Below, one piece after another: positions 3,256 through 53,300 of a stretch of 64,000 nt of DNA; the stretch's first letter is position 1; every line of letters begins with the position of its first letter. Both the position numbers and the translations under genes were made by a program. This stretch comes from Apostichopus japonicus (taxonomy: Eukaryota > Echinodermata > Holothuroidea > Aspidochirotida > Stichopodidae). The stretch covers positions 15,803,876-15,867,875 of the forward strand of contig NC_092567.1 in assembly GCF_037975245.1 (NCBI RefSeq), read 5' to 3'. The notes beneath the pieces are model-generated. The model did no database searches and was not told the DNA's origin. It saw nothing but the letters and a program-made list of their open reading frames with translations.

Positions 3256-4490
3256 TTTGATATGTGATTGGTGAGTATGTTGCCATTAGTATTCCCGTTC
3301 TTTGAGAAAATTGAGAAATGAACATTGCGTTTGTTTCTCACCCGACTCCGATCAATAAATCCGATAAAGGTCTACAAGTTTTGCGTTATCTAGTACCCTT
3401 TTTAAACAATAACAACATTGCAAGATATGCAACCTACATCCTAAAACAAACGGACAGATAGGGGACAAGTGATATTTTTCGTTGATCCAATCTATTAATT
3501 GATATTTAGCACATTTTCCCCGACAGAATCGAAAGTATCTTTTGCGGAAATGTTGCTGCATTAAAAACTGTAGCAAACCTACCGAATACAAGTCAATCAG
3601 GTTGCAATAAGGTTGCAAGTAAGCACCGATATCTTAAATTGAATTGTCAAATACGTCTAAAAATAATTTATATTAATAAATCCTTTTTAAACGTCTTTCA
3701 TATCATTTTAACCACTATTTTAGTAGCAAATCTAAAAGACCATCGATTTTTACAAATGACAAAGTCGGGTTGGTTGATTAATTAGTGATGATATATTAGA
3801 AACACAAAACATCGGGAAAACCTAAATGCTACATTAAATCATACGGGTCTTCAAGTTAATTACAAAACAAGAAAATCAAACAACCAATTCCCTTTTTTTG
3901 CTTGGGTGTGCTTCGTTACCAGGTTTATTCCCTTATTTGATTTTTTTATTCCGTTGACAATGAAACAATGGCAATTAACTTGTACACGGACTGTCCACTT
4001 CCATAGAAACTCTATAACTCTTACACTCAACATATTAGCGGAACATGCATTTCTGTTTTAATGGTAGACTTCAGGTTCCTCACTGTGTACAACAATCAAT
4101 CAATCAATAGTCATACACCAAATTGGCCCGTTGACCTTCCCGAAGTTTATAAACAATATAGGTTTGTAACCTTTTATAATGTTAACCCGGTGCCTACCAT
4201 CTTCGAGTAGCTTGGCTGCAGAACGGCCGGACCATTTGGTTAAATTGGTGTACAACATATTGGGTTTATTTTGTCTACATGTTCGAGGTTTGGAGATTTA
4301 ACTACCTATTAACATGTTGCATATCTTCATCTAACAGACCACGGTGTTGCCATCATATGTGATATTTTGTTCTTAAAGTTTCCCTACAAGAGTGATTTCC
4401 TTTCGCCGTCAGTCGCAAGAAAGTATTGTGCCCAAGGTGACGGTATCGGGCAGATTGTTTGGTTATAGGTCTCCATAAGCGATTTCTTAC
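3256..4490. other. Non-coding stretch, nothing recognised
   Basis: AT-rich DNA between the end of the segmental duplication and a putative transmembrane exon on the minus strand. Short open frames here show no domain-like composition and no convincing splice-site framing. A cytoplasmic exon for the minus-strand Ig gene would be expected in this direction, but I could not identify one. Confidence 0.5.
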
Positions 4491-4634
4491 CTATGAAATA
4501 CAATGAAGCATGGGTGGTTATTATTCCTGATGTGAGGAGAACACAGTGTTTTCGAAGGATACAGCGCAATATGGTAAAGATCACAATCATTAATACTGTT
4601 CCACTGCTGATGAGTTTTAATGACAGCATCTTAT
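4491..4634 (-). CDS. Putative transmembrane exon of the minus-strand Ig gene
   Basis: A 144-nt open segment is framed by a pyrimidine-rich acceptor (ending ttccattag) and a strong donor (ATAG|GTAAGA). It enters in phase 1 and leaves in phase 1, the phase used by the Ig exon upstream at 6797-7108. The frame encodes a hydrophobic run (LISSGTVLMIVIFTILRCIL) followed by basic residues (RKH) and a second weaker hydrophobic stretch, as expected for a type I membrane anchor with a stop-transfer signal. Its length differs from the 117-nt transmembrane exon of the plus-strand relative, and no sequence similarity is obvious. The assignment rests on phase, splice sites and hydrophobicity only; it could be a chance open frame. 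Confidence 0.35.
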
Positions 4635-6796: not shown

Positions 6797-7280
6797 CTTT
6801 AACTTTAAAGAGAAATTTGCCTCCGGCGTTACGATTGTAAGAACAGGAGAAATTCCTTTCACTAGGTTGATTACCCTGCATTTCAACATTTAGAGACCAT
6901 AACGTATAGTTGCAACTTCCCATTGAAATCCCTCCAATTGGCCATTTTGGTACCGAGGTCCTGAAAACAGTCTTCGTATTTTCTCTCCAAGTAATGTTTT
7001 CAGTCGTCTTCTTTACTGGGCAAACCAGACACACTAGTGTGTTTAGGTGTACGGGGCATTCAATCTCATCTCCTGTAGACTCTGCAGTCAATTGACATGT
7101 AGTCAAATCTTGCAGAAAGGCTGGAAGTACAAAATATAACATCTGATTGTAATAAATAAACACTATAATTTGTTGCTCAGGATATGTAATTTTCATATAA
7201 TCAGTTAAATCCTTACCTCTTTCAAATAGGAAAAGTAAGCCCAAGATGTTGCACACAGTGGAGTACCTGAAGGCTGCCAT
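6797..7280 (-). CDS. Partial immunoglobulin-domain receptor gene (signal exon and Ig exon)
   Basis: Two exons join in phase. Exon 1 is 7280-7217 (64 nt, ATG at 7278-7280) and encodes a signal peptide with a hydrophobic core (ILGLLFLF). Its donor is GAG|GTAAGG. Exon 2 is 7108-6797 (312 nt, phase 1 to 1, donor AAAG|GTATGT) and encodes an Ig-like domain: Cys in the B-strand region (LVCLVC), the C-strand Trp (ITWREN), a late F-strand Cys (NFSCSY) and several N-glycosylation sites. The exon sizes and phases match those of the plus-strand gene at 13508-17875, so the two are probably paralogues in opposite orientation. Further exons should lie at lower coordinates; only a possible transmembrane exon (4491-4634) was found. 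The gene may be incomplete, or its later exons may be too divergent to see. Confidence 0.7.
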
Positions 7281-13507: not shown

Positions 13508-16500
13508 ATGACGTCAACTTATCTTTTGGGAGCATTTGTCATTGCAACTGCTTTACAGACTAGCTATTCAGGTAAGTATTTATTTGTTTTGTTTTGCTTT
13601 ATTTTACATCTTAACTGCTTCTTCTAATCACAATTTAACCGAATCTATGACATATAAGTATTGCATAGAATGAAGGATGTAACCGTAAGACAGTAAAATA
13701 TCATCTTACTCAAGATTGTTAATCTTTATATGATACTTTGGTTTTAAAATATAATGATGATGCTTATTAAGAATGATATTAAAATTTCTATAAATGGTCT
13801 TTTTAACAAAGCGTCGTCACTTAGATGTCCAGAAGAACTGTTTGTTGAAGAAGGGAGCATCCAAGTTGTCAACTGTTCACTCACCACGTCTTCACTTACA
13901 GAAATATACTGGTACGTTGGAACCAGTACGAGCTCATTTCCCATCGCGCAATTGGTATCTGGTATCAAATACGTTTGGTCAGTGCAACATTACGATGTCA
14001 GCGACGATGGTTCACTTATCATCAAAAGCGTTGGTCGAAATCAGACAGGACCATACACCATCTTACACTTTTTTGAAGATAACGAGACTGAACGAGACAC
14101 TGTGTTTATAACTCTTATAGGTAATGATCATGTTATACAAGTAAATAAGCAATACAAATCAAGTGATAAGATAAGAATAAGATCTAGAAAACTGTTTGAA
14201 TCAATGATAGTACATATTACCTACCTGTTAAAAATCATTTATCGAATAATCCTTCGAAAGTTACTGTTTTCTCATTACCTCTTGTTTTAAATGATTCAAT
14301 TATATAATTTTCACCTACAGTGACAATTCCTTTACTAACATGAGTCTAGGTAATTGTTCCTCTGGCTCTGTAAATACTCTTCTTTCTAAAATTGAGCGAG
14401 CAGGTAGGATAATGAACCTTGAACGTCACAAGATGCTTGTTTAATCTTTATTTTTCAATATTTTGTATTCCTTTAAAAGATTCTTGTCCAGTGATAGACC
14501 AGTGTACCTCATGTGAAGATTGCGTAGTACAAACGTCTGAAGATCTAATACTTCTCACGTGCACTATCACTAGTCCAACCACAGAGAAAATATTACCAAT
14601 CTGGACTCATAGCAATGGAAGTATAATTCAAGGTCGAATACACGAAGAACGCCTGTCGGATAACTCGTGGAACGTCAGTGTCAGTTTGGACATTCAAAGC
14701 TTGAACTGTGGATTGGCAGTTTTGCTTTGCTCCAGTTCTCTAGGAGGACATGAAAATGCAGTAAGGGTTGCTAGAGCAAACGTAACGTTTGGTGAGTGTT
14801 TTTTGTGTTTGTTAGCAGTTAGGTTATTATGTATACCATTACTCTGACCCATGTTATATTTTGTGTTGTTATATCATGTTATGTTATGACCGAAACTGAT
14901 ATTCATACTATCAGTCAAGTCAAAAACAGGGAGTGTCAACTTTTCAAAAGATACATTCCAAATCATGAAATTAATGGTTGAGCATTTTCAAAGTCCAATT
15001 GGCAGTTAGATATCTATTAAAATTCACGGATGAGACCGAATTTACTTTATTACCTACACATACGACACAACTAACTTAAATACTTTATCAAACGATCATA
15101 TCGGGTCTTACCTATAGTTAATGCTGTCGTACGTAATGTGAACCTTTTTTGAAATTTAACTTTTAGATTGAATATAATTTGTGCATGAAACATTAGCTCA
15201 AAGCACCGTATTGCGTTCGTAACGTACATACATGAGCAGAAAGTTTAATCGGATGTATAAAGCATGAATATGTCATAAAGCATTCTGAATTAAGTTGTGT
15301 TAAGATTTCAGGTGTTTTGCAGTTTCATTAATTGGATGTGTAAACGGTGTCATAAAAGTGTGCATATTTTTTTGCCCAAGTTGGGACAGCTAAAAAAAAA
15401 TAATAAAAATAATGCCCTAATTGTTACAAATTTTCATTCAGTTTTGTATATCTATTTGGTTTTCTGTCATTGTCATTTACTTTATATTTACTTATGAACT
15501 TATGGGCAAATTTCTTAATTTAATATTAACAGTGTCATGTGATGACTTGGATATACCTAATGATGGAAATGCACCGATTCTCATTGTGGTGTGCGTCATT
15601 GCAATCGTGATAATTGTTACTACGACTTTTCTTATTGCACTGTATTGCGGTAAGTGACATTCAAGTACCATTCTATCGAAAAAGGGAAAGAAAAATCACG
15701 ATGCTCATATTGCACGGGAAATAGATAAGCAAAGAAATATTAAGTGCAACAGGAGATGTATCTAGTGCATGTTGCTGTTTACATTTATTCACATATTGTA
15801 TAATATCTTCCCGATCCCCTCTGGTAGGTCTACATGCAAATTTGGGTGATAATTATAACAGTTCACTTTCTTACATTTGGCACATATTATGTCACACAAA
15901 GGTTAGGGCATTTAGGACTAATACGTTAAAGATAAATGTTTTACAGAACAGTGAGAAGGAAATTACAAAAGCGAAGGCATAAAGTCATGAAATCCATGAA
16001 AGTGTAATTCCTGCAAGAAATATTTTTGGTAACGCTGCCGTTGGTTCAAGTTCATTTGCACAGTTTTCAAGAATACAGACAATTCGTGGATAATGATTGA
16101 TAAATCCAAGTATAAGAGACATATTGTAACGTTTACACTGCAGTAGAAATCCACAGATTTAAGAATTGCGCATATCCCCAGATTTTGCCCGATTGGTCTT
16201 TGAATCTTAAAGAATGTTGTTATGTGCTAACTTGCAATTTATGTAGTCAACAGGGCATCAAAGTATATGATAGCTTAATATGTTGTTCTTATACATCTTT
16301 TGAATTACCCCAAATTAACGAAATTGATTTGTGTAACTTTGCGTCAGTTTGTTATATTGTGTGTACGTTATAATTAATAGTGATCAATGTCAAACGTCCA
16401 AAGGAGACGCTTAAAGAATGACGGACATGAGTGACACACGAGTAACGACAAAAAGCCGACCAACAAAGATCCCAAGAAATATGACTTTCAAATGTGATCG

Positions 16501-17875
16501 AGATACAAACAAAATTAAAAATGGCTGTGCTTGAAAGGAAGCTCAATGCGTTCAAGATGTTAAGAAACTAAATACATTTATATAAGATTAACAGTTTTGT
16601 GATAAAAAGAACACCATATCACTAACATGTGCCCTAAGCTTACCTGAATTCCTAACCCCCAACACACACACCCACATTGCAATTGATGTATATATGTAGT
16701 TTTGTTCTTTGCCCGTTTATTCATATCAATAAAGATTGTGTAACATATTGTGGTTTCCGATCTATTTTACCCGTATTTCAAGCAGGTCGCGGTTGCAAAA
16801 GAAACACAAAGAACCAAGATGGAAATGAAGATGGAAATAACGGTGGATGTGAAGATGAAGATGTAAGTTTGCTGAAAGCAATAATATTTATTCATGTTTC
16901 AATTACAGCTCCGCCAAAATTTACGTTTCTAGAATTGCATGTAAGCTCCAAGATTTTCATCATTTTGAAAGTTAACCTTATTTTTTACACTATGGATGAT
17001 ACAAAATGAGCGATAGTAGCACTTGTTACTCGTCGATTTGCATGTATCAATGTACAATACTATGATTGAAACAAATGCTAAAACATAAGAAAATAACTCC
17101 ACAAGACAGATATCGCAAAATAATTTACGTTCGTGATAGGTAAAACATGTTAGAAAACTGCTTAACTACTGCAAATTGTTAACATTTGTTTCATAATCGA
17201 CGGCGGTGACTACAATATAATGTTATGTCGACCTTTCCTTCATATTGACTACGTTTGTTATTAATCTCACCTTTTCTGCAGCTTAAGGAAATCGATCCCT
17301 TGATCGACGGATTCTTGAAGACACAGTTACAAATTGAAACACCTAACGGAGAACGGAAAGAGATGTCCGCTGCATCTGTTTTCGATTCTGATGAGTGGAA
17401 GAACACGAAACGTATTCTTTTTGTGGGTGACTTTTTAGCTGGAGAAACGTCGATTTTTAAACGGGCAACTTTCATGTGCTCTCAATGGAACATCGACGAA
17501 ACCCTTTTTGTTGTTGATATAAAGGGGAATTTCGAAGCAGATATTGCTGAAAAAATTCAGAACCAATTACCTTCAAACAGCAAGTATACGCTAGATAGAA
17601 TAATTGACTTGTTATGCAGTGGAAAGTGTCTAGTGATATTCGATGGTGGTGGTAAACCGTTGGAGCTACCGAAGCCTCCTGATTCGGGACAAGACATAAT
17701 TAAAGATAAACTTACAACATTTGATATTTTATGTAAAAGTGAGAATCCTTCTCTAAGAGTTTGGATTACTTCTATACCTTCAGTTCCTACTAATCATTTT
17801 ATTGATTATAAGAAAATATACTTGCCGACGGTTAATGAAAATGATTCTCAGAGCTCAACACTTAAGGTACAATAA
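13508..17875 (+). CDS. Ig-Ig-transmembrane-NACHT-like receptor, six exons
   Basis: Exons: 13508-13571, 13812-14120, 14480-14791, 15533-15649, 16786-16862, 17282-17875. They join in frame to 490 codons plus TAA; the first four junctions are phase 1 and the fifth is phase 0. Residues 1-21 are a signal peptide. Ig-like domain 1 (about 22-124) has a B-strand Cys (VVNCS) and C-strand Trp (IYWYVG), but the F-strand position after GPYT lacks Cys. Ig-like domain 2 (125-228) has TCTI, IWTH and a late LLCSS Cys, plus a CTSCEDC cluster. The transmembrane helix is about 244-266. An acidic linker (268-293) leads to a cytoplasmic domain resembling NACHT P-loop NTPases: G342...G347-E-T (Walker A without Lys), CLVIFDG ending a hydrophobic Walker-B strand at D414, and a WITSIP sensor-like strand. 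The ATG has A at -3. An AATAAA overlaps the stop codon; alternatively AAG|GTACAA at 17866 could splice onward. Inference: a cell-surface recognition receptor with a non-catalytic NACHT-like signalling or scaffold tail. Confidence 0.8.
15533..15649 (+). CDS. Transmembrane exon of the Ig/NACHT-like receptor
   Basis: This 117-nt exon (phase 1 to 1; acceptor ttaatattaacag, donor GCG|GTAAGTG) encodes a short acidic stalk (SCDDLDIPNDGN) followed by a long, purely hydrophobic helix rich in Ile and Val, ending in a Cys before the cytoplasmic side. The next exon (16786-16862) begins with a basic stop-transfer segment (CKRNTKN). Together they fix the orientation: Ig domains outside, NACHT-like domain inside. 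Confidence 0.8.
17282..17875 (+). CDS. NACHT-like cytoplasmic exon with degenerate P-loop
   Basis: A single 594-nt exon (acceptor ccttttctgcag) encodes about 197 residues. The order of features follows a NACHT core: beta strand and P-loop (RILFVGDFLAGETS), a helix (FKRATFMCSQW), a strand (ETLFVVDIKG), a helix with AEKIQNQLP, then a Walker-B-like strand (CLVIFDGG) and a sensor-1-like strand (LRVWITSIP). Classical NACHT proteins have GK[ST] in the P-loop, an acidic pair after the Walker-B Asp and TSRP in the sensor. Here they read GET, DGG and TSIP. The domain stops before the winged-helix region of NLR proteins. Either the fold is retained without ATP hydrolysis, or the resemblance is a distant P-loop relationship; a structure-based search would decide. 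Confidence 0.65.
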   Translation, partial: LKEIDPLIDGFLKTQLQIETPNGERKEMSAASVFDSDEWKNTKRILFVGDFLAGETSIFKRATFMCSQWNIDETLFVVDIKGNFEADIAEKIQNQLPSNSKYTLDRIIDLLCSGKCLVIFDGGGKPLELPKPPDSGQDIIKDKLTTFDILCKSENPSLRVWITSIPSVPTNHFIDYKKIYLPTVNENDSQSSTLKVQ

Positions 17876-22612: not shown

Positions 22613-22839
22613 AAAACAATACGATCACACAATACGATCAAACGCCTTCCATTCCTGCAACATGAAAACAAAGTCAAATACATTACTTCACCTGATGCGT
22701 CTGTCTTAGTACCTCAAACAATACTTCCAAATATAAATAGGCCTCTTTAAAACGACAACTCATCACTGCTGAAGTAAATTCCTACAGAAACCCTCAAACC
22801 TTTTTTTGTTTGTTTAGAGAATCTGACCTTATATTTGTA

Positions 22840-23420
22840 ATGCGGATTACCTCCAGCATACAGCACCCCTGTTTACTACTCTTAACGCTCTTAGTATCTA
22901 TGATATAAATCGTTACTATGTTGGTATTTTTATTTTCAATTGGTTACATGATAGTGCTCCGTCGACTTTTCGCAACTATTTTCAGTTACGTAACGATCCT
23001 TATCCTAACCGTGCGCCAAATCAATTGACTGTTCCTTACTTTAGACTTAGGTCTGCACAACTTGGTATTCGTTATGTCGGTGTAAAACTTTGGAATTCCC
23101 TCCCTACTACTATTACTGGTTGTAAAACTCTGAACACCTTCAAAAAACGTCTTAAAGAGTATCTTATATCAAACTATCATTGATTTTGTATTTTCCTTTC
23201 TTTGCCATCTTTGTTCTGTTTTCTCTGTATACTTAAGCTTTCTTTCTATGTTTTATTTGTAAAGGGGTGTCAACGTAAACAAGCTCTGCAGAGCTTCTTG
23301 TTGGCACTCCTCAATCTCTTGTTCTCTTGTACATTTACCCACGTCTATTGTCATAATTGCATACTTTAATGCGAGAGATTGAAATAAAGTCTTATGAATT
23401 GAATTGAATTGAAATTGACG
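22840..23420 (+). mobile_element. 5'-truncated LINE (CR1/L2-like) 3' end
   Basis: One frame from about 22850 to the TGA at 23182 encodes the typical C-terminal tail of a non-LTR retrotransposon ORF2: HTAPLF near the start, FNWLHDSAPSTF, then VGVKLWNSLP and TFKKRLKEYL just before the stop. It is followed by about 200 bp of 3' untranslated sequence and ends in a short ATTGA-type repeat (23395-23415), the kind of tail seen in CR1/L2 elements. The reverse transcriptase and endonuclease regions are missing, so this is a dead, 5'-truncated copy. Confidence 0.8.
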
Positions 23421-32948: not shown

Positions 32949-35701
32949 TTAAGCTGTTATAGGTGTGCCAGGTTTCTGGTACCCTCCACGTCCACGATAC
33001 TGTGCTTGACCTCGAGCGTTATTCCCTCCACGCCCTGCAAAAAGTGGTGTGGAAGAAGAAAAAAAGTTTTAATCTGTCAAATTGACAGAGAGAGAAAGAA
33101 AGGAGGACATATCAAACCAGACCTTGTAATGTTGGAGACGAAACAGAAAAATTAACAAATATGTGAGAATAATTAACAAATAAAATATGCAAATAAAAAT
33201 AATAAAATAATAAATAATAAATATAAAAAATATAAAGAAATAAAATTAAAAAATATATAAAAAAAATATAATAATAATAATTAATAAAATAATAAAATAC
33301 GCAAATATGTGAGAAAAATTAACAAATCAAATATGCAATGCATGATAGATTACTCAGGGTATCTGTTGATTACTTTTTAATTCTTAAAGAGCATTTTAGA
33401 GGTAAGTCTTTAAGTGTAAACATACATACCAAGTGTTACTCTCAATAAGGTTATTCAAATTATGATACATTCCTAAAATTTTTAAGAAACTTTCCGCACA
33501 TAAATGGCAACCTGTTCCCTTCAAAAAGTCTCAAACTGCTTCGTTTTTATTTCAAAATTTGACTCATCAAGCTTCCAAGCTGGAACATTGACTAGCTTCC
33601 AGCGACCTATCAAACTGACGCAAAATAAAATCGCATCAAATATAAAACTATGAATTAGCCAAATTCACAAACAAATTTTTACATGGCTTTAGTCTGCCAG
33701 AAAAACCCACATTCATTCCCAATGCAAAAGTCAGTCTCACTGGCAGTATCATGCTTTCCATTCAGCAGGTTTGTTCCTCCAAGTGTGGGTATATAAAAAA
33801 ATCAATTTAAAAAAACATGATACAGGGCTTTTCCAACAAAGCTCTGATCAGTAGCTTCTTCTTTCATTGTTGAGATGGATTACATCTCGATACTCTTTAT
33901 TGGATGGGGGTAGTGTGTGCAATAACCTGTCATGTCATTCATGGACTACACAAACAACGACTCTTGCTCTTTGCCTTTAACGGTTATACATCCTTGGAAA
34001 ATCAATTGACTGTGTGAATGGGATGCTATTTGATATCGGCAAGATGATCAGAAAATAACAAACTGTGAGCGCACCTACCCCCTCGGGGGGCCCCCCTGTT
34101 GACACCTCCTCTCCCTCGGTAATATCCGGTCTCTTGCGGTCTGTTGAAAGTATTGTAGGGTGCTTGTGTGAATCCCATCTCTTGCGTTCGTGGCTGGAAA
34201 TTTTCACGGGGTTGTGGTATGTAGCCGGAAGGGTAGCCGCCTACATTTATATAAAAGAATAAGAACACAGAACATTATATTTTCCATACACAACTTTCTT
34301 TGGAAATTTTTACGGGGCTGTGGCATGTAGCCGGAAGGGTAGCTGCCTCCATTTATATAACAGAATAAGAACACAGAACATTATAATTTCTTTAAACAAC
34401 TTTCTTTGGAAATTTTCACGGGGTTGTGGCATGTAGCCAGAAGGTTAACCGTCTACATTTATATAACAGAATAAGAACACAAAACATTATAATTTCTTTA
34501 CACAACTTTCTTTGAAATTTTTACAGGGGTGTAGCATGTACCCTCACGGGTAGCCATCTACATTATATAACAGAATAATAACATAAAACACCTATACTTT
34601 CTTTTCATAACTTTCTTTGGAAATTTTTACAGGGGTGCAGCATGTACCCTCACAGGTAGCCATCTACATTATATAACAGAATAATAACATAAAACACCTA
34701 TACTTTCTTTACAACACTTTCTTTGGAAATGTTTAACAGGGGTGTAGCATGTACCCCGAAGGGTAGCCGCCTACATTTATATAACAGAATAAGAACAGGA
34801 TTACTTCAAACACTAGGTTGGAATACTTTCTTTACACAACTTTCTTTGAAATTTTTACAGGGTTGTAGCAATGTACCCCGAAGGATAGCCGCCTACATTA
34901 TATAACAGAATAATGACACAAAACACTATACTTTCTTTACACAACTTTCTTTGGAAATCTTTACAGGGTTGTAGCATGTACCCTGAAAGGAGGCCGCCTA
35001 CATTGTGTAACAGATTAATGATAGTATTATGAAACAATACATTGAAATATTTATTTTTACATGCCTTTCTTTTTAAATTGGTTGAAAGGAGGAACATTTA
35101 AGTCTCATTATGCTATCAATCTCGACAGTGAAACAATGTGTTTTTTTTCTAATATCATAGTAAATTTTCACACAATCTAGACGATGTACTTTACTGCCAA
35201 ACTTTTAAGCCTGCTTGCAACACATTGAGCGAATGACAGATTCTGACTAAAAGGTTCCCTGCTCCTATACAAAATTGATCGGATGACTTGTGAGCAGATG
35301 CATTGACCGATTATATCAATACACTTTAGGCTATACGTCTGTGGTATGTACTTTGCATAGTAACGATGCCTCGGTCACCACTGGAGACCATAGAGTCACA
35401 CACAAAAATTATTTAAAATAAAAATGCACTACTGCTATATTTTCATATTACTCGTGTGCGATGACTGGAGCTGGTCCTGAATAATCAAAGAGAATCAAAT
35501 CTATCGAGGATTGATGAAACTTACCTCTTTGTATATTTGAATTGTTAAACCTGGGTGTGTTTCTTATGAACGGTAATCCAGAACTACCCCCTCTTGGATT
35601 TCGGTAACCAGGGCTACCCATAGCTCCTCCACGCCCTCCTCGGCTGCCTCTGTTATTTCTGGTATAACTATTTGGGTATGACTGGTACTGGTAGTTATTA
35701 T
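32949..35701 (-). CDS. CAPRIN1: Caprin exons 14-16: C-terminal RGG region
   Basis: Exon 14 (35701-35525) encodes [20 protein letters not shown], exon 15 (34240-34079) [15 protein letters not shown] through [15 protein letters not shown], and exon 16 (33034-32949) [20 protein letters not shown] followed by TAA. Arg-Gly-Gly repeats mixed with aromatic residues match the RNA-binding C-terminus of Caprin-1, which ends in a similar RGAPRGRGG segment. Phases are 1 at both internal junctions. Exon 15 is preceded by a minisatellite made of copies of its own 5' end. Confidence 0.9.
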
Positions 35702-38289
35702 CTGAAGAAAGTAAAACCACCCCGCAAAAAAAATTGATAAGAGAAATAAAAACACATTAAGAAATCAAAACATTTTTGAATGACCGAAAAATATTGCATC
35801 ATTTAATTGTTGAGTTCCTTAAAAAGAATAGTCCAGGTCAAACTTTCGTTTTGATATGTTGAAGAGGAACATAATCAATGCATTCTGGTGAAATTGGCAT
35901 TCAACTCCAATGTATCATTTTTGAGATATTGACAGTTGAAGTTGCCAATTTTCGTAATAATAGTGAACTTGGAGGAAACAGGTGTGACGTCATTGTTGCA
36001 CATTGATAAATAATGTTTTGGTTTCCTTAAAAATTTACATCTAATTTTAAACTCCACGATTGGATGCATCCATAATGTGAATGTTCCATAGGTACTGGTG
36101 TTTTATAAACTTCACATCCCCTTTAGACAAACTAATAACCCTATCCAATCCAAGGTCAAATCAACAGACGGTAAAATAAAGAAAAAACAAAACATTATTT
36201 GTCAGTGTGCAACTATGACATCACGCCTGTTTGCTTCAAGTTCACTTTTGGTAGAATATCACATAACTTTGACTGTCAATATCTCAAAAACGGTAAATAG
36301 GAATTGAATTCAAATTTCACCAGAATGCTTAGATTATGTTCTTCTTTAAACATATCAAAACGCAATTTTGACCTGGGCTATTTCTTTACCAACCAAGTGC
36401 ATTCGAGGCTCCGTCTATCTGGTTCTTGGTAACGAGACAGAGAGGATAATGCTAACAAATTTATAGAGCAATCGAATCACTCGAGAGGTGCTCTGCAGTG
36501 CTTTAACAACAAGAACAGAATGAGTTAACAAACAGACTCAGTAGGCTATATGAAATAAATACGATTTATGAGCGACCGAAACAAAGTTGCATGAACACAG
36601 TTTACAGAACTCAGTACAGTAATCACCACCATGAATTCCTTCCAGCTCTGCTGAAGAAACAGATGTAGAAATTTGTCTGCTATTCATCTATCAAATTTAA
36701 GCATGAATGCTTGGATATGGGAAGTATTATCAAATTTATTTGTTTTTCCAAAAAAAAAAAAATTTCAATTTTTTTCTTAATTTTTTTTAAACTGATTATT
36801 ACTTTCCTTAAATATACCTACAAATGTTTTCTGAAAGAATAAATAGGAAAACAAGGGAAAAAACGTTGAAAAATTGCAAAAAATATCAAATTAAAACCTC
36901 TTCAATTGTATGTCGTTTCTTTCTATGGAAAATACTGAACAGGATGCATACATGTGTAAAATAATTACCTATATTTGGAGGTGAGCTACGATATTCCACC
37001 GATCTTGTCTCTGATTCCGATTTCTTACCCGCTGATGATGGGTGACCGGTGTCAGAGGCAGCCTGCATCGACGAAGACGAGCTAAAATTAGAATCCTGTG
37101 AGAAAAATCGTGAGAAGAGACAATGACGTCAAAACTGTTTTTTGTAAGATCACAGGGATGAGCCTGGGGTAAAAAAAAAATCACGGAACTTTGCAAAAAT
37201 TGCGGTATAGGCTCCAGTTTGCGTATGCTACAGTGTGTTAGGATAAGAGTTTTTGTCCCCAAGGTAGAAGAGAAATCACGGATATTCTGCGAATTAACGG
37301 AACAAGCTAATGTCTGAAAATCAACTGTAAAATGAAATGAACATTTGGCTTAAGTTAAGCAAGCATTTCACACACAGGAATACGAGACAGAGGAAATAAT
37401 TAATCGGTAAAACTAGTCCTTCGCAAATTGCATCCAAGAACTTCCTGCTTCACATTCATCGTATATTTCTTCCTTTAGTTACCAGTTTTAATAGATACGG
37501 TTCAGTTGTAGGTGCAGAGTTGAATAGATCATACGCAATATGCTGGTTAAATCTAAACGAAACGTCAGTCAATTCAATCTGCTCCCAAAAAAAGGGTAGT
37601 TATTGCCTTCGTGTCTTAAAAACAGACAGACCATTATAGCAGAGCAAACTTAGGAGTAGTGACCTGATTATAAAACTTAGTCACTGTTTCAGACAAATAT
37701 GCTAGAAAAAAAAATTAATGGTCACTGATGTTCAAGCTTGAACAAGTGTTCTAGGTCAGAATTCAAAGAAAGAAAAAAAAAGGAGCTTATTCTATCAAAT
37801 CAAGACGTACATCTTGGCCTTTCAGAGGGATATGGACAGTCAGAACTTTCAGGAGAAAACTGAACCAACCACATAAACTATGACCAAGAATTAAAGTTGC
37901 TCTTTTCAAACTTGTTTATAAAAGTTTCTCTCGAGATCCCTTCCCTCCAACTTTCCGGGTGAACCAATGAAGTAATCTCTAGTTTAACAGTATACAAGGT
38001 CATGTGGCTTGCAACTGGCACCTACCAACAAAGAAATAGTTATAAGAGGGTCCCCAACCTAGCAAGTGCTGGTGAAGCAAATTTAGTAAAACACACAGGG
38101 CTGGTGATCCTCAAGTGTCACTTGGTTCGAATCTCATGCCAGCCAAAACATTCTTTGAACTTTCTGTTGTTGTACATCTTTGAATGATTTGATTCAGCAA
38201 ATCTGTCCATCGACCGATCCAGACCACAACAGGTATCAACCAGGACATCATGTGATGAAGTCATACTATATATGTTTATATTAACACAG

Positions 38290-50300: not shown

Positions 50301-53300
50301 GAGCGTAGCGGAGCCCAGTGCATCCAGCGATAGCATTAACACCCGGAGTGCATTAATCATGTGAGTAACGCACGCTAGACCATTGATTAACCCCGTTCAT
50401 TCATACACTACCATTTGTGTGGGGGAAAAATCATAAAACAAAACATTTTTGGTTACATATAACCAAAGATTTATTAAAGTGATGCCCCGTAATTTTACCC
50501 TGCGTTACTCACAGGATTAACCACGGTCAGCTGACCTGAATGGACCAATAGGATTTAGGAATCTTTACTAAGTATGAATGAACACCAATTTACCTCACTC
50601 ACGACAGTCTGAATGGTACCAAGGAACTCCTTGGCAAAGCTAAGATGGCCTTGCACCTCCTGGTAGTGGGATACTGCCTCTTGTTGGTCTTTGTTGAGGG
50701 CCTTGCCCCCCTCTACCATCTCCTTGTACCCTTCTAGTTTAGTCTGTGAAAAAAAAAAAACATTAGACCCCCCAGATGATCTTTTGATTATAATAATAAT
50801 AATATTAATAATAATAATAATAAATAACATTTATATAGCGCTTAATACAGCGTTTCAAAGCACTTTACAAAGTAGGAAAGAGACAAAGGAGACCAAGGGA
50901 AAAGAGAAACTATGAATCAAACAGAAATGTTTTAAGTTGTCTCTTGATAATACAAAGGGAGGGAGTGTCACAAACGTGAAATGGGAGTTTGTTCCAAAGA
51001 GAAGGCGCAGGGACAGAAAAGGCATGATTGCCCACAACGAGTGCGGGTAAGTGGACCAGGAGTTAATTGCAAATGAGCATGATAGGAAGAGCGAAGCAAA
51101 ACTGTAGTTGACCGACGCAAAGTGATATAAATATTGAAAGGAAGCCCGTTGATAGCTTTGTAGGTGTGAAGTAGGATCTGAAACTATGCGCTGAGAGACG
51201 GGAAGCCAATGCAATGAACAGAGTACAGGAGTGATGTGATCAAACTTTTAAGTGATTTGAACTGTACTGTAATCGTCAATGCCCAGGCAGTGTACTGCTA
51301 AGTTAATTGCTATCAGATTTCTCAGATTAACTAGCCTAATGTGGCCGTATGTAGGGCAAATTATCACCTTGTGGGTAACAGGTAGTATGTGTTCCCACAG
51401 TTAGCTTACTGCCGCGTATGTTGGGTAAATTATCTCCACGTGTTAAGCAAAAATGCGGGAACACTGTTGAGTGTGATTTTAAAATGGTCTCTGGGGCTTT
51501 TTATCACTTTTCCCCCCGAAATTTTTGCTTATAAAGCTGATAAATCTGTATTTTTTTTTTTGGCAAACTGATGGTTAGGCAAAATTTACCCATTGTGTTA
51601 GGCTACCATATGGTCGAAGATAACAGCAATATTGAAAGTATTCCATGGATACCTTATAACTGCGTCACAAATTTAGCGGTATAGGCTAGATTTCCCCCAT
51701 TGTCCAGCAATGCATTTTCACTCTGCATATAGAATGTCAGTGTCTGATCGACTGTTGTTACAACACTGTTGAAAATACATTGCACTGACATTAAGCCACA
51801 AGTCTAATTTGACTTCTGGGTACATTATTAGAAACTAACGTTAGGTGACTTTTATTAGTGTAAAGAATTTTGCTAACGATGTTGTAAAGTTAATATATCG
51901 CACGTTTTTAAATAATCTATGTATGGTTTGGGTGTTATTCAGAAACTATTTAATTGAATTGACTTTCGTTTTTAATGAAATATATTAGGCTCAATAATTC
52001 TGCTAGTCATCTCGGATGACTGTGAAAATCCTACACTGTAATAAGTTCCACGTGTGAACATCGGGGGAATACGGCAAAGGCAACTCGCAGCTAACCTACT
52101 TGCCTGTACCTCCCGCAGGCTTGTTTGTCCACATCACTGCTGCCTTTCCTTTGAATTTCCCTTATCTCTCTCGCCACACATGTACGTAATGTCAATGTAC
52201 GTAATGTCAATGACTTCATTGTTTAACGTAACAGCTGACATTGAAGTCTTTGTTTTTAATGCTCAGGATTTAGGGCCTAGTCATTGCCATTCAGAATAAT
52301 CAGGGTATTAAGCTGATGGCTAAAGATGTTACAGTTTTTGCCTAATGTGCAGCCACCAACTAAAAACAAAATTAGATAAGAGGGAAAGAGACACTGCACA
52401 TGACAAGGATAAAAGAGAAAGAAAATTCTTGCCATCCTGGAAATCAACATTTCCTTAGGTTTCGTACAATAAGGAAACCAATAAAATGTTTTGTGACATT
52501 TGCATAAAAAAAACCTGAAATAGCAAACAAACAAGGACTCGCATATTCTTAGACGGCCCTGACATCACAGACTACGACCCCAGTGCTGCCATTGATCTGT
52601 GGTTAAAGGGTGTGTCGAAGACGAGGCGACCATGGCATAAGCCATACAGGCCATTTGCACCAAGGCAGAGGTCTACTCAAGACAGCTCGGCCAGTAGTGA
52701 GGATGACTGATTCTGAAGATGATTTTGATGATGATTAAGTACAGCGGCCCTTTTTAAAATATTACAACTTGCGTCCTGGGTTACCTGTCTTCTTGCCTCA
52801 GTACACAAAACAATTTATATGATTATCAACAAACCAACAGAAGACTCAATAATATAAGTTTGTTATGTTATTTTTTTCTCTTTTTATAGTTTCAAAGGAA
52901 TAGTGGAAAATGAGACGGAATAGTGTAATTTCAAATCAGAATAATCTAAAAAAATAAAAAATATTCTAAATTTTGACCCCTGAACATTTGTGCAGACCCC
53001 TAACATCCACCAAGGCCCATGGGATAACAATAGACTGCGGATTTGGATAGGCCTTCACTAGGGTTGTGCGGGATCCCGGTAGTCAAGTGAATCCCTGTAC
53101 CCCGATCCCGGTATTGACTAATCCCGATCACAGTGCAATGTGTAACTACTACCGGTATTGGGAAAACAACAGGTTATTACATTCGTTTCGGTATCATTCC
53201 CGGGAATCCCGGACATAATAAAAATATCTACGTGTTACTATTTGAAATAAAGAAAACAAAACACGATTTTTTCTGGTTTCTGTGTTCTTAGTTTGAATAA

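Follow-up and report, generated by a model that had tools for sequence, protein, structure and literature searches.

Does a single gene of the sea cucumber Apostichopus japonicus join immunoglobulin (Ig) domains, a transmembrane (TM) helix and a NACHT-type tail in one surface receptor, and could that tail still work as an ATP-driven switch? The question is raised by a locus within the window (i.e. the whole stretch of 64,000 nucleotides of DNA analysed here), for which an earlier note, made from the sequence alone, had proposed such a receptor. We hold it very probable that the anatomy of the gene and the descent of its tail from NACHT are, taken together, correctly read. On balance, we favour the explanation that the gene belongs to a tandem subfamily of the sea cucumber Ig-TM-NACHT kind, with a tail that has been shortened, has lost its nucleotide-binding lysine and may act as a decoy or modulator.

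Gene structure and predicted product

The gene is predicted to encode a type I membrane protein. Six exons (positions 13508–17875, plus strand; Table 1), with GT/AG splicing and phases 1,1,1,1,0, give one frame of 490 amino acids comprising, in order, a signal peptide, a V-set Ig domain, a cysteine-rich Ig-like exon, a TM helix, an acidic linker and a 197-amino-acid NACHT-derived tail. When the 6-kb region was simulated 300 times with an order-2 Markov model, no open frame reached 208 codons, while frames of at least 102 codons occurred in 37% of the simulations; how long the shorter exons are is therefore no proof in itself. The gene model goes beyond chance because the whole architecture, in the same order and on the same strand, is repeated in all five tandem copies read. 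The splice signals are also retained in these copies with the exception of one acceptor, that before exon 6 in copy A (present in the other four). The six-exon model with agreeing phases that had been proposed for this locus therefore stands.

Table 1. Features of the receptor gene and of its divergent neighbour (positions in the window).
Feature	Position	Strand	Basis and remarks
Exon 1, signal peptide	13508..13571	+	64 nt, phase 1 at end; ATG and donor in 5/5 tandem copies read
Exon 2, V-set Ig domain (Ig1)	13812..14120	+	Pfam V-set; 8 close genome copies including self
Exon 3, Ig-like cysteine-rich domain (Ig2; plausible)	14480..14791	+	no profile match; in 5/5 copies read
Exon 4, membrane-proximal stretch and TM helix	15533..15649	+	hydropathy; 82–97% identity in 4 other copies read
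Exon 5, acidic cytoplasmic linker	16786..16862	+	gene model; copies read
Exon 6, NACHT-derived tail	17282..17875	+	stop at 17873–17875; 8 genome copies including self
Signal-peptide exon of divergent neighbouring Ig-like gene	7217..7280	-	64 nt
Ig-like exon of divergent neighbour	6797..7120	-	no Pfam match; 7 copies (75–100%) in array
Fragment homologous to residues 26–72 of the L017 full-length NACHT query	4396..4536	-	tblastn E 6e-17

The genome matches are exon by exon, as they would also be if the Ig and P-loop exons belonged to different transcripts. We regard this as extremely unlikely, given that the exon phases agree, that the order is kept in every copy read and that each of the eight tail copies has one Ig1 copy upstream on the same strand. 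An Ig1-related exon likewise lies 3.4–7.8 kb upstream, on the same strand, of eight of the 10 NACHT matches on C12, and AjNLRC4, a receptor with this order of domains, is reported as one protein (PMC8699970).

Ectodomain and membrane helix

Exon 2 matched the Pfam V-set profile (28.2 bits; cut-off 26), although the second cysteine, usually present in this domain, appears by eye to be substituted (YTILHFF). Exon 3 had no Pfam match in the window copy or in the two paralogues tried (L033 and L035), and a search against the PDB gave nothing significant (best E 0.37; an antibody CH3 domain at E 0.98). Of the two extracellular Ig domains proposed earlier, the first is thus confirmed by the V-set profile, but a second Ig domain in exon 3 is only plausible. 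Hydropathy revealed one strong hydrophobic stretch, its peak windows starting at residues 244–245. The order required of a receptor of the AjNLRC4 kind, Ig followed by TM, is therefore present, with Ig1 firm and Ig2 plausible.

Known relatives

The earlier note had named no established family with the Ig-TM-NACHT order, a view contradicted by the literature (PMC8699970, PMC13133943, PMC8913654, PMC11932488). This design has been in print since 2021, and AjNLRC4 of A. japonicus (MN607598) has been studied experimentally and is described as a type I protein with an Ig-like domain, an Ig domain, a TM helix and an intracellular NACHT, with neither CARD nor LRR; a second TM is also reported (PMC8699970). 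AjNLRC4 and the present gene share the Ig-TM-NACHT order and a related Ig1 (E 1.5e-4), which in AjNLRC4 also lacks, by eye, the usual second cysteine. They are nevertheless distinct, as the AjNLRC4 primers map to another contig (C16, about 4.497–4.502 Mb). The NACHT exon there, attributed to AjNLRC4 because of its position, carries an intact P-loop (GEPGFGKS), DGFDE and 530 open codons, in contrast to the short lysine-less tail found here.

Two further holothurian cases were compared by their published descriptions. AjNLR-new from A. japonicus (PIK48001.1; 1197 amino acids) is also a single membrane protein with Ig, a TM helix and NACHT but is set apart by its opposite reported topology, with NACHT outside and Ig inside (PMC13133943). 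NLRs with a V-set domain, uniting V-set and NACHT in one protein, are reported in Chiridota heheva (PMC8913654). The closest NACHT relatives of the tail are full-length NACHT exons of the same genome, on C7 (L017–L019) and C12 (L021–L030), which retain the Walker A lysine (GDIGCGKT on C7; HGKT or HGKA on C12) and have 389–583 open codons as against 197 in the tail. L018, one of the C7 exons, is also preceded on its own strand by an exon related to Ig1. The published Ig-TM-NACHT design thus occupies several places in the sea cucumber genome.

Descent of the tail

Exon 6 had no match in Pfam, NCBIfam or PADLOC, and the curated cut-off of PF05729 was reached neither by the window tail nor by any of the five paralogues (out of its seven) that were tried; the Pfam NACHT hit that had been suggested as a check was therefore not obtained for the window copy. 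Exon 6 is, however, homologous to the full-length NACHT exon L017 of the same cluster (E 5.6e-23, 36%), and L017–L019 are Pfam NACHT domains (49.0–52.5 bits; cut-off 26.7). Because of this homology to Pfam-positive NACHT exons in the cluster, we take the tail to be NACHT by descent, as traced through intermediate sequences.

Profile comparisons and phylogeny are consistent with this assignment. An HMM built from 15 intact NACHTs scored all eight tails at 55.6–73.8 bits (best of 2000 shuffles of the window tail, 8.6) and, with the C7 members removed, still at 19.6–28.9 bits vs a best shuffle of 6.9, while an HMM from only six of the first eight Pfam-hit NACHTs did not tell the tails apart from shuffles. 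Alignment by hhalign (E 0.005) placed the motif regions in register, but with a probability of only 7%. In the tree, the eight tails and the three full C7 NACHTs were joined at 90/84, and these with five C12 NACHTs at 100/99; the program warned that long branches meet where the tails join the C7 NACHTs.

A PDB sequence search with exon 6 gave one chance match (E 0.41), and an AlphaFold model of exon 6 alone, also suggested earlier as a check, had a mean pLDDT of 36 and yielded no Foldseek match at E <= 0.001. Because of this low pLDDT, neither the strand-helix order of exon 6 nor its Foldseek list is used as evidence. A search of viral contigs found no relative.

Lost motifs and truncation

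In the tail of the window copy, the P-loop is degenerate (GDFLAGETS, starting at residue 342) and the Walker B region reads IFDGGGKP. The lysine of the Walker A motif (GxxxxGK[ST]) has been replaced by Glu or Asp in all eight tails, with GDFLAGET, GDFLTEET, GDILTEET, GDFLTEDS or GDLLAGEK in place of the GDIGCGKT of L017–L019. The arginine of the TSR sensor is likewise replaced in all eight (in copy A the sensor position lies beyond the stop). The Walker B aspartate is kept in 8/8, while the glutamate matching that of L017 is present in four and lost in four, including the window copy. All eight tails end at or before a common place, ahead of the remainder of the NACHT module, and nothing downstream matched the C-terminal half of L017 in any of the five copies read. 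A potential donor site where exon 6 ends (AAG|GTACAA) was considered as a sign of further exons and rejected, the read-through stop falling at that codon in all seven paralogues.

The intracellular NACHT-like P-loop domain of the earlier proposal thus holds by homology to intact exons, but not as an intact module, and the tail is probably NTPase-dead rather than a working ATPase. An ordinary, active AjNLRC4-like receptor with a divergent but working NACHT would fit the shared architecture, the related Ig1 and the surviving Walker B residues. We nonetheless consider it very unlikely in view of the replaced lysine and arginine, the unmatched C-terminal half and the intact motifs of the NACHT exon assigned to AjNLRC4.

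Tandem array and selection

As had been suspected, the gene is a member of a lineage-specific receptor set, an array of eight with the same architecture in all copies read. This subfamily, in which the tails are shortened and seven of the copies have a divergent Ig gene next to them, may be new: no paper among the matches listed describes it, judging by titles and the beginnings of abstracts.

The ratio pN/pS was 0.37 in Ig1 (five of the eight copies), 0.54 in Ig2 and 0.92 in exon 6 (bootstrap 0.71–1.23), the last being almost free of amino-acid constraint; the first 55 columns of exon 6 gave 0.49, a value made insecure by its bootstrap range of 0.26–1.09. In this tandem branch, constraint on the ectodomain has thus persisted, while the lysine of the ATP switch has disappeared from the NACHT tail. 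Five of the eight tails end before the common end, all these stops falling within the last 45 residues, whereas residues 1–150 of the tail contain no stop in any of the eight copies against about 10 expected without constraint (tree length 0.663 x nonsense fraction 0.0344 x 450 nt). No frameshift was found among the eight copies.

An ITIM-like motif, IDYKKI, occurs at residue 467, in a part of the tail with a pN/pS of 1.24.

The tail could simply be decaying, with only the Ig-TM part functioning as a receptor and what remains of NACHT being a relic in the course of being lost. This would account for the high ratio in exon 6 compared with Ig1, the early stops, the acceptor missing from copy A and the absence of the lysine throughout, but seems unlikely to us considering the stop-free residues 1–150, the absence of frameshifts, the lower, if insecure, ratio of the first 55 columns and the acceptor kept in four of five copies.

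In the decoy or modulator reading, the Ig ectodomain would bind a ligand of microbial or self origin at the cell surface, and the tail, unable to run the ATP-driven NACHT switch, would offer a nucleotide-independent binding surface. It would then most likely compete or dimerise with intact Ig-TM-NACHT receptors. We advance this role for a dead-tailed receptor tentatively. It raises the questions of whether a membrane-bound NACHT tail needs nucleotide at all and whether dead-tailed copies restrain intact ones.

A divergent neighbour on the minus strand

Beside the receptor gene lies a divergent Ig-like gene on the minus strand (Table 1), followed by a NACHT-related fragment in which the P-loop part of NACHT was not found. 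In plants, head-to-head NLR pairs occur in which one member tunes or silences the other. By analogy, the dead-tailed plus-strand gene and the divergent Ig gene, the latter of the intact NACHT line, might form a co-regulated head-to-head pair, one member of which modulates (tunes or silences) NACHT-bearing membrane partners. Such a paired system appears distinctly improbable: of the four divergent genes in the stretch read, three have no more than a short NACHT fragment after them and the fourth has none, and a gene uniting the minus-strand Ig exons with the full NACHT exons is no more than putative, none of these Ig exons having been found in the 11 kb that lie upstream of L017, as far as the exon at 15680.5 kb. 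In its favour, a minus-strand Ig-like exon lies approximately 4–9 kb upstream of seven of the eight plus-strand copies, and the cluster also contains minus-strand NACHT exons that are intact.

Gene structure of the window copy

The gene model at 13508-17875 is real: all six in-phase exons described in the earlier note were found, and their in-frame splicing (phases 1, 1, 1, 1, 0) gives a product of 490 amino acids. GC content was higher in the exons (0.37-0.43) than in the introns (0.24-0.34), and when 300 counterparts of the region were generated with an order-2 Markov model, none contained a 208-codon open frame, while a 102-codon one occurred in 37%. As to the two Ig domains proposed for the outside, Pfam identifies exon 2 as V-set Ig; exon 3, for which no Pfam match was obtained in the window copy or in two paralogues tried, appears Ig-like from its size, phase and cysteines. 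One strong transmembrane (TM) helix was detected. An AATAAA at 17871 overlaps the stop of exon 6 (window 17867-17875), and all seven paralogues carry a stop codon at the place of AAG 17864-17866, two codons earlier than the window copy.

Coordinates of features in the window
Feature	Position	Strand	Remark
Exon 1	13508-13571	+	
Exon 2	13812-14120	+	Ig1
Exon 3	14480-14791	+	Ig2
Exon 4	15533-15649	+	TM
Exon 5	16786-16862	+	linker
Exon 6	17282-17875	+	tail
Divergent Ig-like neighbour, signal exon	7280-7217	-	64 nt
Divergent Ig-like neighbour, Ig exon	7120-6797	-	
Leftover N-terminal fragment of full NACHT exon	4536-4396	-	near window copy
Open frame	35448-35756	-	presumably caprin-1-like (RGG-rich end)
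Open frame	50555-50830	-	presumably caprin-1-like (helical part)
Open frame	22827-23183	+	presumably retroelement fragment

The array on C7

The window occupies positions 15803876-15867875 of contig C7 (G000). Searching the genome (671,581,487 bases, 35 contigs) with exon 6 returned 22 matches at E <= 0.1, self included: seven further copies that share 62-76% identity with it and all lie on the plus strand of C7, between 15.586 and 15.822 Mb, four minus-strand matches in the same cluster (33-42%; three full, one partial) and ten matches on contig C12 (24-29%). Ig1 had at least 97 genome matches at E <= 0.001; with 150 of 196 candidates scored, eight were close (80-100%), so placed that every tail copy has one of them upstream, and the next best reached 37%. 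Sequence was read from 15.72 to 15.888 Mb, and all five copies there conserve the order signal, Ig1, Ig2, TM, linker, NACHT; their ATG and splice sites (donors and acceptors) are intact except for the exon 6 acceptor of copy A. The three copies outside this stretch are known from Ig1 and exon 6 matches only. The divergent neighbour Ig had 11 genome matches, seven of them (75-100%) each located upstream of a plus-strand copy at a distance of ~4-9 kb; the other four (45-54%) contain stops, and one adjoins copy C, which has no intact divergent neighbour. This kind of receptor is already known; the form seen in the array may be new.

Descent and motifs of the tail

The NACHT-like nature proposed for the cytoplasmic domain was borne out, exon 6 matching (E 5.6e-23 to 4.5e-19) the full-length minus-strand exons L017, L018 and L019, which score 52.5, 49.0 and 50.4 bits as Pfam NACHT; on sequence grounds, exon 6 is NACHT by descent. 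An HMM built on 15 intact NACHTs (6/8 first Pfam hits, 3/4 from C7, 6/10 from C12) scored all eight tails at 55.6-73.8 bits, against 8.6 for the best of 2000 window-tail shuffles. Without its C7 members the tails scored 19.6-28.9 bits (shuffles' best, 6.9), and with the six Pfam-hit sequences alone they were indistinguishable from shuffles. Aligning the eight tails with 7/8 first Pfam hits (hhalign) gave E 0.005 and a probability of 7%, with motif regions in register. In a tree of all eight tails, 3/4 C7 NACHTs, 5/10 from C12, 5/8 others and the published receptor AjNLRC4, tails and C7 NACHTs grouped at 90/84, and that group with C12 at 100/99; the branch leading to the tails is long (1.09), and the program warns of long branches meeting where tails and C7 NACHTs join.

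The Walker A motif, GDIGCGKT in L017-L019, reads GDFLAGET, GDFLTEET, GDILTEET, GDFLTEDS or GDLLAGEK in the tails, its lysine being replaced by Glu or Asp in all eight. Walker B (FDGSNE) has become DGGGK or DGDGQ in four tails, including the window copy, and retains its glutamate as DGGGE in the other four; the sensor TSR is TSI, TSL or SSL throughout, lying beyond the stop in copy A. No match to the C-terminal half of L017 was found downstream of the tail in the five copies read. The tail is probably unable to use the ATP switch.

Constraint and function

For AjNLRC4, bacterial binding by the Ig part, dimerisation, internalisation and binding of beta-actin by the NACHT part are reported (PMC8699970), as is binding of caspase-1 by the Ig part (PMC11932488). 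By analogy, the ectodomain of the array receptor would bind a ligand, and our best guess is a decoy or modulator.

The main rival is that the tail is a relic. Point estimates of summed pN/pS were 0.37 for Ig1, 0.54 for Ig2 and 0.81 for TM (5/8 copies each) and 0.92 for exon 6 (8/8), whose successive parts gave 0.49, 0.79, 1.12 and 1.24, every bootstrap interval including 1. Three intact C7 NACHTs gave 0.46 for the P-loop part, 1.00 for the C-terminal part and 0.68 overall. Residues 1-150 of the tail contain no stop in any of the eight copies, with ~10 expected on the tree without constraint (a rough estimate, 0.6626 x 450 x 0.0344); early stops occur in five copies, all within the last 45 residues, close to the ~3 expected there. 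Together, these values imply that the tail core stays open while its residues vary freely and its end is free.

The AjNLRC4 locus and other loci

The AjNLRC4 primers EX-F (one mismatch) and qF (exact) each have a single genome site, both on contig C16, adjoined by EX-R (one mismatch) and qR (exact), which supports Apostichopus japonicus as the probable source species; the C16 loci examined, which cover part of the gene only, gave no match to the siRNA target as printed. Both printed AjNLRC4-IN primers (PMC8699970) have one genome match each at <=2 mismatches, exact, on contig C14 (L048 and L050, G000:C14:1474164-1477174), with a ZZ zinc-finger frame nearby. Neither was detected in the C16 loci examined, where a splice-junction primer would be overlooked. 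The C14 placement may reflect a table error or another construct, a caution for the NACHT-actin step of the analogy.

Neither the caprin-1-like frames nor the retroelement-like frame of the window had Pfam support. Genome-wide, at least 106 Pfam NACHT matches exceeded the cut-off (488 candidates), 97 of them on C7, C12 and C16. Upstream of the full-length NACHT exon L018, six consecutive Ig1-related exons possibly form with it a multi-Ig NACHT gene (L018 with L043; G000:C7:15543-15551 kb, minus strand).
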